Source: Methanosarcinaceae archaeon (GTDB taxonomy: Archaea > Halobacteriota > Methanosarcinia > Methanosarcinales > Methanosarcinaceae). From it: 59,650 nt of DNA. Location of the stretch: the NCBI GenBank assembly GCA_020055655.1, contig JAIPUR010000015.1, positions 1-59,650 of the forward strand, in the 5' to 3' direction. The notes beneath the pieces were generated by a model. The model was not told where the DNA came from and made no database searches. It worked only from the letters and a program-made list of their open reading frames with translations. Positions 2,998 through 59,650 of the stretch are shown here, piece after piece; the stretch's first letter is position 1; every line of letters begins with the position of its first letter. A program made the position numbers and the translations under genes.

Positions 2998-4275
2998 TCA
3001 GGTAAGGGTGATATCAGCACCAATTGTCTTCATTTGCTCGAAGAAATCGGGGTACGATATATCCACAGCTTCTGCATTGTCGACTCTTGTGTTGCCTGCC
3101 ACCATTCCTGCGATGGTAAGTGACATTATGATCCTGTGATCGTGCCATCCATGCACATCTGCACCTCTTAGCTTTCCACCTTTGATAATAAGCTGGTCCG
3201 TCTCTTCTTTAACGCTGATTCCCATTTTGCTAAGTTCAAGCGCCATTGCATGCAGCCTGTCTGTTTCCTTGTAGCGGACATGCTCTGCATTTTGGATGAC
3301 TGTAACACCCTCTGCACATGCAGCAAGAACTGCAATGGTTGGTACAAGGTCAGGGGTTGCTCCTGCATCAAATGTCGTTGCTTTAAGCTTTCCTGCACTT
3401 AGCTTAACAATCCCTTTTTCTTTATCCCAATGTATCTTAGCTCCCATGCGCTCCAGCACATCGATGATGATCTTATCACCTTGTTCAGATGGGAACAGGT
3501 TCTTCACAGTGATACTTGAACCTGTAATAGCAGCAGCTGCCAGTATGTATGAAGCAGAAGAAAAATCACCTGGGACGGTGTACTCTTTCAGGTTGTACTT
3601 CTGGTTGGCAGGTATGATAAATTTAATATTATTTCCTTCTTCAACTAGAATTTCAGCACCTGCCTTTTCGATAATTTCAATTGTAATATCTACATAAGGC
3701 CTGGATTTCATTTCCCCCTTTATGGAGAGGGTTGTACTTTTTGTTGTTAAAGGACATGCTATCAGCAAGGCAGATATAAATTGTGAACTAATTGATCCAT
3801 CTATCATTGTGATCGCGCCTTTTAATCCTCCGCGGATCACAAGAGGTGCACATCCATTGTTGCGTGTGGAATCTGCTTCAACACCGAGCTTATTCAAAAC
3901 ATTAAGTAGAGGTTTGTTTGGTCTGCCTCTAATGGAACTGTCTCCTGTCAGTACAGTTACACCGTCTGCAAGTGCTGCAACAGCAGTCATGAATCTGAGA
4001 GTTGTACCGGAATTTGCTACATCTATTACATTATCCGGAACATTTGGTTTCCCTTTTACTCCACGAACTACTAATCTGTCATCCAGTTTTTCAATATTTG
4101 CACCGAATGCTTCACTTGCTCTTACTGTTGCCAGTGTGTCGGCAGACAAAAGTGGTCTGTGAATCACACATTCATTAGATAATGCTGCAATGGTGATCGC
4201 TCTGTGTGTATAGCTTTTTGACGGTGGTGCGAACAGCTCGCCACTAACATTTGAAATTCCAACAGAAACTTTCAT
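2998..4275 (-). CDS. aroA: 3-phosphoshikimate 1-carboxyvinyltransferase (EPSP synthase)
   Basis: The 425-residue protein catalyses the sixth shikimate-pathway step, transfer of enolpyruvyl from PEP to shikimate 3-phosphate, towards chorismate and aromatic amino acids. Visible motifs are PPSKSYTHR near residue 17 (substrate-binding Lys/Ser), NSGTTLRF around residue 89, and the C-terminal GWHDHRIIMSL segment. The length is typical. AGAGG lies 5 bases before the ATG. The gene is alone and divergent from the DUF488 gene; no other shikimate genes are in the window. Confidence 0.97.
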   Translation of the reverse strand: MKVSVGISNVSGELFAPPSKSYTHRAITIAALSNECVIHRPLLSADTLATVRASEAFGANIEKLDDRLVVRGVKGKPNVPDNVIDVANSGTTLRFMTAVAALADGVTVLTGDSSIRGRPNKPLLNVLNKLGVEADSTRNNGCAPLVIRGGLKGAITMIDGSISSQFISALLIACPLTTKSTTLSIKGEMKSRPYVDITIEIIEKAGAEILVEEGNNIKFIIPANQKYNLKEYTVPGDFSSASYILAAAAITGSSITVKNLFPSEQGDKIIIDVLERMGAKIHWDKEKGIVKLSAGKLKATTFDAGATPDLVPTIAVLAACAEGVTVIQNAEHVRYKETDRLHAMALELSKMGISVKEETDQLIIKGGKLRGADVHGWHDHRIIMSLTIAGMVAGNTRVDNAEAVDISYPDFFEQMKTIGADITLT

Positions 4276-43452: not shown

Positions 43453-45777
43453 ATGTCAGTAGTCGTTTTTACAGAAAAGAACAAAGCCGCTTCACAAATT
43501 GCAAAGATATTAAGTGGGGGCTCCGTCAATCGTGCATCTATAGCCGGTATTTCTGTATACGACTTTAAGAAAAATGGTAAAGAATGGCGGATAATGGGTC
43601 TAGCCGGTCATATTATGGGTTATGATTTTCCGGCCGAGTTCAATAACTGGAGGGAATGTGACCCTGCTATACTCCTTGATGTCCCTCCTGAAAAAAATGT
43701 GACAAAAGAGTCATTTTCCAATGCCATCACTATGCTTTCAAAGGATGCAGACGAGCTTATCCTTGCCTGCGATTTTGACCGTGAGGGAGAAAATATAGGA
43801 TTTGAGGCAAAATCCATTGCTGAAAAAGTATCTTCAGCTCCAGTTAAAAGAGCAAGGTTCTCATCTTTGTCATCCAGTGAAGTGAATAAGGCATTTGACA
43901 AGCTGATTGAGCCAGACAGCAATCTTGCTATGTCTGCAGAGGCCCGGCAAATTCTTGACCTTCGCATGGGTGCAGCTTTTACTCGTTTCATGACCCTTTC
44001 AGTCAGGGAAAGGGCACGTACAAAAGGTGTTATATCCATAGGTCCGTGTCAGACACCAACCTGTGGCTTTGTTTATGAAAGAGAACGCCTGATAAGAAAC
44101 TTTGAATCAAAGGATTTCTGGAAGATCGAGGGAACCTTCAATTCAAAAAACAAAGATTTTGTAGCTAATCATCGTGGTGGCAATATCTCCGATGCTAAGA
44201 AGGCAAAGCAGATATTTGATAGGATCAAGGACATCAAGCAAGCCATTGTTGCCAAGAAAAGTGTTAAGGAATCTAAAACCAATGCACCATATCCATTGAA
44301 TACTACTGAATTTTTGAAGCGAGCTTCCAAGTTTTTAGATGTAAGTCCTGATGTAGCTCTGGAAACAGCAGAGCAGTTGTATCTTTCAGGTTTTACTAGC
44401 TATCCAAGGACCGAGACTAACAAATATGCTGATGATTTTGATTTCAGATCCAAGGTGATGGCTTATACTAACAGTATTTATCGTGAACATGCGCTTTTGA
44501 TCATTTCCAGCGGTATCAATTGCAGAAATGGTACACGTGATGGTCATGACCACCCTCCTATCCATCCTATTAAAGCTGCTTCAAAGGACGAGGTTGAGAA
44601 AAGCGTAAGAATGCCCGATGCATGGAAAGTTTATGATCTTATCACAAGGCATTTCCTTGCAAATCTTATGCCACCTGCAGTATTTGAAAAAACAAGACTT
44701 GAGATCCATGTTGTCGATGAGATATTTGATACATCGGGCTCTGTTATGAAGGATGCTGGCTGGCTTGCAGCTTATCCTTTTGAAAATAAGAATGACAAAC
44801 TTCTTCCCGATGTTTCTGAAAAGGAAATCCTGCTTGTAAAAGAAATTAGAAATATCAAATCGAAGACTGCCCCTCCTAAAAAACTTACCGAGGCAGAATT
44901 ACTCACATTGATGGACAAACATGGTGTAGGGACCAAGGCAACAGCTCCTTCTCATATTGAAACCAATAAAAAGCGTGGTTATTTTGAAACTAAAGGGAAA
45001 ACGATCTCAATACTTGATACCGGTTTCACTTTAATGGAAACTCTTGATACTACAGTTCCGATACTCATACGACCTGATATCAGGTCTCGTATCGAGGCTT
45101 TGATCCAGGATGTGGAAGATGGGAAAAAAGAGTATGATTCTGTTCTTCTGGAAGGTCGTAATCTCATAAAAGATATGTATGCCCAGCTTAGTGCCAGCAA
45201 AGGCGATATTGTTGCAAAACTTGCAGGCACTATCAATGATGAGCAGGTTGCCTCTGATAAGAAGAATTTCATCGGGACCTGCCCTGAATGCAATCGGATG
45301 TTGCGTATTGTAAGTACGGACAAGGGTCGCTTTGTGGGATGTTCCGGCTATCCTCAATGTAAGAATACCTATCCTCTCCCAAAGGTGGGAGCTCTGAAGA
45401 TACTGAGGTCAAAACAGTGTAAGAAAGATGGTGTTGCCATCATCAAGGTGGGCAACAAGTATCATTGGTCTGTGGGATTCGGGCCTTGCTTTACCTGCGA
45501 GTCTGAAAAGGAATGTTTTCCTCCGGATATATTGGGCCAATGTCCAAATTGTGATGGGTCAATGTTCTTAATAACAACCAAGGATTCTCGTTTTCTTGGA
45601 TGTACTAAACGTTGCGGCCATACTCAATCTATTCCAAAGAACGGTCGTTTAACCATTCTTAAAAATGTATGTGATCATTGTGGCTGGAGGCAGATCCGTA
45701 TCAAGGAAAAAGAGAAGGATGCAAAGGAATTCTGTACTAATGTGAAGTGTCCTTCTAAAAAGCTCAAAAGGGGATAA
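43453..45777 (+). CDS. topA: DNA topoisomerase I (type IA)
   Basis: A 774-residue type IA topoisomerase. The Toprim acidic motif is DFDREGE (107-113), RMGAAFTRFM and the substrate-gate region follow, and the catalytic Tyr is in GFTSYPRTETNKY (about 317). The C-terminus has three to four Cys-rich zinc-ribbon modules (GTCPECNRM, GCSGYPQC, GQCPNCDGS, CDHCGW, CTNVKCPS). It relaxes negative supercoils through single-strand passage. The ATG at 43453 gives the normal N-terminus MSVVVFTEKNKAASQIA. A 13-pair hairpin (45775-45820) follows the stop. Confidence 0.97.
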   Translation: MSVVVFTEKNKAASQIAKILSGGSVNRASIAGISVYDFKKNGKEWRIMGLAGHIMGYDFPAEFNNWRECDPAILLDVPPEKNVTKESFSNAITMLSKDADELILACDFDREGENIGFEAKSIAEKVSSAPVKRARFSSLSSSEVNKAFDKLIEPDSNLAMSAEARQILDLRMGAAFTRFMTLSVRERARTKGVISIGPCQTPTCGFVYERERLIRNFESKDFWKIEGTFNSKNKDFVANHRGGNISDAKKAKQIFDRIKDIKQAIVAKKSVKESKTNAPYPLNTTEFLKRASKFLDVSPDVALETAEQLYLSGFTSYPRTETNKYADDFDFRSKVMAYTNSIYREHALLIISSGINCRNGTRDGHDHPPIHPIKAASKDEVEKSVRMPDAWKVYDLITRHFLANLMPPAVFEKTRLEIHVVDEIFDTSGSVMKDAGWLAAYPFENKNDKLLPDVSEKEILLVKEIRNIKSKTAPPKKLTEAELLTLMDKHGVGTKATAPSHIETNKKRGYFETKGKTISILDTGFTLMETLDTTVPILIRPDIRSRIEALIQDVEDGKKEYDSVLLEGRNLIKDMYAQLSASKGDIVAKLAGTINDEQVASDKKNFIGTCPECNRMLRIVSTDKGRFVGCSGYPQCKNTYPLPKVGALKILRSKQCKKDGVAIIKVGNKYHWSVGFGPCFTCESEKECFPPDILGQCPNCDGSMFLITTKDSRFLGCTKRCGHTQSIPKNGRLTILKNVCDHCGWRQIRIKEKEKDAKEFCTNVKCPSKKLKRG

Positions 45778-45820
45778 TCAAGCAAAACTGATTGGATGGT
45801 AAATAAAGTTTACTTGATTA
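45775..45820 (+). terminator. Hairpin at the topA 3' end
   Basis: TAATCAAG-x-AAACT pairs with AGTTT-x-CTTGATTA around a 16-base loop, beginning in the topA stop codon. There is no T-run after it, so it may be a 3'-end processing or stability element rather than a simple terminator. Confidence 0.4.
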
Positions 45821-45840
45821 TGTTGAGAAATCACCATAGA

Positions 45841-45849
45841 TTTATATAT
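45841..45849 (+). promoter_or_regulatory. TATA box of a candidate small RNA
   Basis: TTTATATAT lies between two convergent genes, where no protein-coding promoter is needed on this strand. The expected transcript start, about 25 bases downstream, coincides with the 5' side of a 10-bp stem at 45872. Confidence 0.5.
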
Positions 45850-45871
45850 TATGGCACACAATCTTTAATTA

Positions 45872-45968
45872 GAGGCAAAGGTCAAAATCAATTCAAACTA
45901 ACTTTGACAATCCATGTTCCGGAGTAATCTTCTGCGTTTCTGCATTTCCTCTATAATGCCTTTGCCTC
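45872..45968 (+). ncRNA. Candidate structured small RNA
   Basis: A perfect 10-bp stem (GAGGCAAAGG at 45872-45881 with CCTTTGCCTC at 45959-45968) encloses about 77 bases. Inside, GTCAAA (45881-45886) pairs with TTTGAC (45903-45908). A consensus TATA box is placed 25-30 bases upstream. No C/D-box, H/ACA, RNase P, 7S or tRNA signature was found. The 3' end overlaps the stop of the convergent nitroreductase gene, so the RNA could also be antisense to that mRNA's 3' end. An alternative is that the stem serves as a processing or terminator hairpin for the nitroreductase mRNA on the other strand. Confidence 0.4.
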
Positions 45969-46494
45969 AATGCCTCCATTCTTTTCCAAACTTCTCGTTA
46001 TAACAAAGTTCCTGTATTTCCTTTCTTGTGGATGTGGCATTGTTGTTCATAGCCTGGCCTATTGCAAGGACCGCCATAAGTTCTAATGATTCCGGACAAT
46101 CAAGGCTCAAGTTGACCTTATCTTTCTGATTCAGGATCTCTCCAAGCCATACCGCTCCAAGACCTATATCATAAACCCTGAGGAGCATGTTCTGTATGGA
46201 CGCACCGATCGCCTGAGCATCTTTTGTATGGTTGTACATGGTATCGTGGTCAAGAAAGACTGCTATAAGCAGAGGTGCATTCCTGACAACTTCAGTATAA
46301 TGTGTAAAATTAGAAAGTTCTTCTATGGTATTTTTATCCTGGATGACAATGAACTTCCATGGCTGATTGTTCAATCCCGATGGTGCCCATCTTCCTGCTT
46401 CGAGGATACTGTCTATGTCTTCAGGTCGAACAAGATCTTCTTTGAATTTCCTTATGCTTCTTCTTGAAAGGATCGCTTCCATAGTTTCTGACAT
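45967..46494 (-). CDS. Nitroreductase-family flavoprotein
   Basis: A 175-residue FMN-binding nitroreductase. RRSIRKFKEDLVRPEDI at the N-terminus contains the FMN-phosphate-binding Arg/Ser residues; AGRWAPSGLNNQPWKFIVI and GLGAVWLGEI are family motifs. These dimers reduce nitro compounds, quinones or flavins with NAD(P)H; the physiological substrate in methanogens is not known. AGAGGTAT precedes the ATG. It is monocistronic. Confidence 0.92.
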   Translation of the reverse strand: MSETMEAILSRRSIRKFKEDLVRPEDIDSILEAGRWAPSGLNNQPWKFIVIQDKNTIEELSNFTHYTEVVRNAPLLIAVFLDHDTMYNHTKDAQAIGASIQNMLLRVYDIGLGAVWLGEILNQKDKVNLSLDCPESLELMAVLAIGQAMNNNATSTRKEIQELCYNEKFGKEWRH

Positions 46495-59181: not shown

Positions 59182-59650
59182 ATGTCTATGGATGTTGAAT
59201 ATCTAACAAAAGATAATGAGGATGATTGGAGGGATTTTACTGAGAAGGAGGATCATGCAGGCATCTGGCACACCCTTGAGTGGCGGGATATTCTGGCAAA
59301 AGAGTATAGTTACAAGTCTAAATATCTAATTGCAAAGGATGGGGATGAAGTATGTGGAATACTACCCCTTTTCCAAGTAAAAAGTCCTATTACAGGCAAT
59401 CGTTTAACTTCACTTCCATTTTCTTACCATTGTGGACCTGTGGCAAAAACTGATGATGCATATCTTTCATTGATCCATGAGGCTCAGAGTATTGCCGATG
59501 ATCTTGGTTGCAAATACCTGGAAATGAAGATGATCGAAAAACTTCCTGATCAGGTTGTAATAAATGGAAATGTGGTAGACAATCTTTATTTCAACACAAG
59601 CATTCTGGATCTGTCTTCTAATCCGGATGATAACTGGAAGAAGCTGGATT
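59182..59650 (+). CDS. FemAB/GNAT-like acyltransferase, N-terminal part
   Basis: The window ends within this gene; 156 codons are visible. IWHTLEWRDILAKEYSYKSKYLIA, GILPLFQVKSPITGNRLTSLPFSYHCGP and the ILDLSSNPDDNWKKLD hinge are typical of FemAB-type proteins associated with exosortase/exopolysaccharide loci, which transfer aminoacyl or acyl groups. GGTGAT lies 6 bases before the ATG. With the deacetylase upstream, it appears to start a surface-glycan modification operon that continues past the window. Confidence 0.85.
   Translation, partial: MSMDVEYLTKDNEDDWRDFTEKEDHAGIWHTLEWRDILAKEYSYKSKYLIAKDGDEVCGILPLFQVKSPITGNRLTSLPFSYHCGPVAKTDDAYLSLIHEAQSIADDLGCKYLEMKMIEKLPDQVVINGNVVDNLYFNTSILDLSSNPDDNWKKLD

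Follow-up and report, generated by a model that had tools for sequence, protein, structure and literature searches.

A conserved structured RNA gene beside a nitroreductase gene in Methanosarcinaceae, with a candidate anti-Shine-Dalgarno loop

To our knowledge, few small RNAs of archaea are backed by structural covariation. The characterised methanogen examples that we met come from Methanosarcina mazei, and the RNA described here spans six genera at a fixed locus. In M. mazei, sRNA154 is described as a structured intergenic RNA whose anti-RBS loop covers the ribosome-binding site (RBS) of glnA2 (PMC5867862, PMC11456600); its gene is placed between MM3337 and MM3338 and reported to be under nitrogen control (PMC3177094). 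A second RNA, sRNA162, is reported to mask the predicted RBS of MM2441 with a single-stranded linker, and that report gives homologues only in M. acetivorans and M. barkeri (PMC3510493). The intergenic sRNA41 is reported to repress by masking RBSs in polycistronic mRNAs (PMC5867862). A study of Methanolobus psychrophilus reports 195 intergenic small-RNA starts (PMC5378194), which may already include, as an unanalysed start, the RNA that we found at the topA side. No title or abstract opening that we found in the open-access literature describes this RNA.

Our analysis concerns a window of 59,650 nucleotides, positions 1 to 59,650 of a contig from a Methanosarcinaceae archaeon (JAIPUR010000015.1). 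Within it, positions 45870–45985 of the + strand almost certainly constitute a conserved structured RNA gene. We consider it reasonably probable that this small RNA gene stands alone under an archaeal promoter of its own, that it represents an undescribed Methanosarcinaceae RNA family and that its product acts in trans by pairing with ribosome-binding sites.

The RNA gene lies downstream of a topA-like DNA topoisomerase gene on the same strand (43453–45777, +; Pfam PF01131) and faces a convergent gene of the nitroreductase family (45967–46494, −; Pfam PF00881). A TATA box, TTTATATAT (45841–45849, +), has counterparts upstream of the relatives' copies and places the predicted RNA start at about 45870–45872. 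The closing stem is formed by a 5' arm, GAGGCAAAGG (45872–45881, +), and a 3' arm, CCTTTGCCTC (45959–45968, +), which form a perfect 10-bp inverted repeat with a spacer of 77 nt and covary in relatives. Inside it, a hairpin (45881–45908, +) is predicted from GTCAAA (45881–45886), which has one base in common with the outer stem, and TTTGAC (45903–45908). The earlier note on this DNA had located the TATA box, the 10-bp arms, the inner hairpin and the convergent genes, and we found each at the claimed position. Its 3' end for the RNA, 45968, was too short: the RNA continues to a T-run near 45985 (45982–45985, +), the putative transcript end, with a conserved CCUCC in between. The 3' arm touches the nitroreductase stop, and the final 19 bases of that gene lie within the RNA. 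A separate hairpin directly 3' of topA (45774–45821, +), identified as an inverted repeat, is distinct from the RNA and is a possible topA terminator.

Considered alone, the window gave a modest signal that was only suggestive. Perfect 10-bp inverted repeats with a spacer of 40–150 nt arose in 73 of 5,000 shuffles of the intergenic stretch and in 4 of 286 same-sized tiles of the window. The region had folding z-scores of −2.7 on the + strand and −3.7 on the − strand, and because both strands fold better than shuffles, folding alone left the strand unfixed. At the gathering score, Rfam (release 15) matched only three tRNAs elsewhere in the window and nothing at the RNA, and there was likewise no match at this score at eight Methanolobus loci. 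A match to the C/D box RNA snoU36a on the − strand (24.8 bits, E 0.0058) fell below its gathering score of 45 bits, and a match to the Na+ riboswitch was also sub-threshold; one further Rfam comparison gave no match at all. Comparison with relatives raised the signal far above chance.

For this comparison the same-genus set comprised 27 Methanolobus-type genomes, including the window genome, and the junction was found by locating both flanking genes, topA and nitroreductase, in each genome. BLAST alone hid the RNA, because only the nitroreductase part aligned well in a nucleotide search with the intergenic region. The junction was assembled in 26 of the 27 genomes, the exception being G013, whose nitroreductase gene sits at the end of a contig, and all 26 junctions hold a TATA-led RNA of about 115–130 nt with one layout: a TATA-like box, roughly 27–31 nt, an arm of the GAGRCGAA type and, about 75–95 nt further on, its complement. 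The 26-sequence alignment supports an 11-bp closing stem, in which 97.5% of cells are paired compared with 84.8% in shuffles, slid controls lie far below the observed pairing and 6 of the 11 pairs are changed on both sides. Across a wider set of 21 diverse copies, pairing reached 97.0% (85.9% in shuffles) with 8 of 11 pairs doubly changed, and 0 of 500 shuffles matched the observed values. A comparison with related genomes that should reveal compensatory changes in the stem had been proposed in the earlier note; the changes are there in both alignments and, with the TATA box about 27–31 nt upstream, they bear out its reading of a structured RNA that follows a TATA box and belongs to no known family.

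The closing stem of the window copy itself is of the GAGRCGAA type and is backed by compensatory changes; its arms are GAGGCAAAGG/CCUUUGCCUC where the usual same-genus arms are GAGACGAA../..UUCGUCUC. The copy was matched by models R1 and R2, which include it, and by R3, built from the other 25 same-genus copies with the window copy excluded. When the whole window was scanned with R3, this copy was the top match (27.7 bits, E 1.4e-4). A second R3 match, at 59519–59609 (18.1 bits, E 0.03), is probably due to chance. Inner hairpins differ among lineages, and GTCAAA/TTTGAC is not common to the relatives, so the inner hairpin put forward earlier stands for the window and fails as a family feature. 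That of the main Methanolobus group is nearly invariant by eye and is therefore uninformative either way. Most loop sequence outside the motif described below is poorly conserved between genera.

We then followed the RNA through the Methanosarcinaceae. R1, a Methanolobus-only model, recovered all 26 same-genus copies and matched eight genomes of other genera, and in seven of these eight the match directly adjoins the nitroreductase gene. We dropped the eighth, in G102, as chance-like, as it lacks the loop motif and its stretch has no nitroreductase match. In a chosen set of 20 genomes, 18 of which had a match, we also inspected the region beyond the nitroreductase gene and saw further copies in G029, G030 and G031. 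At an E-value cut-off of 0.01, R2, a model from 21 diverse copies, matched 44 of the 111 family genomes; we removed G121, a low-complexity match without the loop motif, and added G002, which R1 alone had found and R2 had missed. The final tally is 46 copies in 44 genomes of six genera (Methanolobus, Methanomethylovorans, Methanohalobium, Methanosalsum, the MAG genus g23 and the MAG group g4), located beside the nitroreductase gene and single in each genome save for two tandem pairs (G132 and G133). We infer that g4, which includes HMMV2, is ANME-3. The tandem copies in g4 lie at L121:3143–3266 and 3620–3744 and at L294:1944–2071 and 2487–2614; in L121 there is a second, partial nitroreductase match by the second copy, and the unit seems to have been duplicated together.

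The RNA stays by the nitroreductase gene where topA is on another contig (G128, G131 and G132 of g4). In G028, topA and the nitroreductase gene are close together without the RNA, which may have been either lost or never present there. None of the other 67 family genomes gave a convincing match to the RNA models, and R2 had no match outside the family when 185 genomes of the order were searched, returning the same 44. Among 80 named nitroreductase loci, those of Methanosarcina, typical Methanococcoides, Methanohalophilus and Methanoperedens had no convincing R2 match, and neither had L199, which is titled ANME3_10. Weak R2 matches in the Methanosarcina loci L216 and L218 were rejected as chance, lying away from the gene and on both strands.

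Several features bear on the strand. In 45 of 46 copies, a loose pattern finds a TATA-like match 18–40 nt before the RNA start, and at least four T in a row occur within 30 nt 3' of the stem in 28 of 46, so that the + strand carries a TATA upstream and a T-run downstream of the stem. In core stem columns 4–11 of the diverse-copy alignment there are 8 G-U cells and 1 A-C, an excess that appears to favour the + strand as a lean rather than as proof, since RNAalifold and the stem finder both favour G-U. Another tally, 38 to 2, was set aside because the stem finder scores G-U as pairs. Directly 5' of the RNA start, copies from genera other than Methanolobus, except those of the Methanomethylovorans type, carry TTGTTCG(T/C)A or a close form (AGTTCGTA; L119–L122, L128, L130, L131, L292 and L295), possibly a promoter-proximal or operator element.

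The conserved part of the loop is a short motif. Its sequence, ACCUCC, complements the core Shine-Dalgarno sequence GGAGGU and is the same as the anti-Shine-Dalgarno core of 16S rRNA. Interior ACCTCC occurs in 38 of 46 copies, where shuffling predicts 1.59; the eight copies without it include the window copy, and several of them carry one-base variants. The loop is poor in G (5–13%), and predicted folds mostly give its interior CCUCC an unpaired probability above 0.7, L124 (0.31) being an exception. An additional CCUCC stands 3' of the stem in most Methanolobus and in all six Methanomethylovorans-type copies. In the window, the loop holds only UUUCCUCU (45945–45952, +) at the relatives' ACCUCC stretch, possibly a weakened anti-Shine-Dalgarno remnant. 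The anti-Shine-Dalgarno-like GCCUCC 3' of the stem (45972–45977, +), which most Methanolobus relatives retain, is present, with a predicted unpaired probability of 0.93 for its CCUCC. The window copy has lost the loop motif, and probably acts via the post-stem CCUCC or has changed targets. The earlier note, which had only this copy, could not have seen the conserved motif.

These observations suggest a mechanism. Once transcribed, the RNA would use its 11-bp closing stem to enclose a G-poor, mostly single-stranded loop displaying one or two ACCUCC motifs in most members, often with a further CCUCC between stem and T-run, and ACCUCC would pair in trans with the ribosome-binding sites of target mRNAs and lower their translation. 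Pairing with ribosome-binding sites is the most likely role because ACCUCC is complementary to GGAGGU, and trans-acting Shine-Dalgarno masking is favoured because the nearest known RNAs in mechanistic terms are the RBS-masking sRNAs of M. mazei.

Searches for targets covered several candidates. When the 27 same-genus genomes were searched for long complements of the RNA, most of what came up was the RNA gene itself. A methylamine-permease-like gene (EamA, by a corrinoid protein) has a site 5' of its start codon in 5 of 27 genomes, and was rejected as a target: the RNA of each of these species matches it at the core alone. In mtaC (NF040655), a GGAGGTAG site is kept in 24 of 24 upstream regions examined (25 genomes with a match), and a swap test gave no cognate preference (−18.2 vs −18.3 kcal/mol when swapped). 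Motif complements in the five g4 genomes searched numbered 28 in all compared with 52 for the reversed control. The nitroreductase gene itself was also rejected as a target, its GGAGGU-type RBS being found in most Methanolobus and absent in the g4 and g25 (Methanomethylovorans-type) copies. No conserved target emerged from the complement searches and the swap test. Separately, we note striking conservation across Methanolobus (L329–L352) of the stretch around the mtaC RBS, TAAGGAGGTAGAAT with its neighbours. An MtaC match at E 1e-60 was present in 25 of the 27 genus genomes and in neither the window genome nor G017; a link between MtaC absence and loss of the loop motif is weak, as G017 retains ACCUCC in its loop.

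The motif can also be read in other ways. If the RNA served as a scaffold or decoy bound by protein, its closing stem and ACCUCC repeats would form a protein site, not a pairing region. The repetition of short identical motifs in a caged loop would suit such a role, as would the outcome of the target searches, but the motif is the exact Shine-Dalgarno complement and sits in mostly unpaired stretches, like known anti-RBS archaeal sRNAs, and we hold this reading to be possible but unlikely; a translation factor or Lsm-type protein would, to the same small degree, be an example of the partner. Alternatively, the RNA might be a free-standing mimic of the 16S rRNA 3' tail that competes for Shine-Dalgarno sequences globally and with low specificity, an idea that we regard as doubtful. 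It would show ACCUCC(U) one to three times on a stem scaffold, which is as doubtful, and a variant that we rate no higher has it compete for factors that read the 16S tail. Were the mimicry real, the RNA of methylotrophic methanogens and ANME-3-type archaea would set the translation of strongly Shine-Dalgarno-led messages, methyl-corrinoid genes among them.

Other readings start from the neighbouring gene. Cis-antisense action on the nitroreductase 3' end, raised in the earlier note, draws on the overlap with the last 19 bases of the gene in the window and on the persistence of the RNA beside nitroreductase even where topA is on another contig (g4). In many Methanolobus genomes, however, stem and T-run come before the nitroreductase stop, so the overlap is not conserved; it also leaves the conserved loop motif unexplained, and the linkage may reflect only shared history. 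We consider this quite unlikely. A − strand element, either a 3' untranslated region or a terminator of the nitroreductase mRNA, would fit an element that always follows that gene and folds at least as well on the − strand, but the + strand TATA-like box in 45 of 46 copies, the excess of G-U over A-C in the core stem and the T-run on the + strand make it very unlikely. The inverted repeat ends and a short ATG frame in some copies might recall a mobile element (MITE) or a small protein gene. This reading is already largely refuted and, in our view, barely credible: the locus is fixed, with one copy per genome save two tandem pairs, differences in loop length are not multiples of three and the arms show compensatory change. 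The single fixed copy per genome led us to reject the MITE.

Trans-acting pairing with ribosome-binding sites remains our preferred reading, and the RNA is present in culturable Methanolobus species. The ACCUCC motif gives a direct hypothesis, that the motif affects translation, and the window lineage, which has lost the motif from its loop, offers a natural experiment. The RNA is also a test case for whether methylotrophic methanogens use anti-Shine-Dalgarno control as a general strategy. With sRNA41, as described, it shares an intergenic origin in an archaeon and, by our inference, RBS masking; the two differ in genus, and R1 and R2 give only chance-like matches in Methanosarcina-type genomes. 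The published descriptions of sRNA154 likewise give a structured intergenic sRNA with an anti-RBS loop, which is predicted here, at a different locus (MM3337/MM3338 rather than topA/nitroreductase). In sRNA162, according to its report, the linker is the most variable part, whereas in the RNA described here the loop motif is the part that is conserved.
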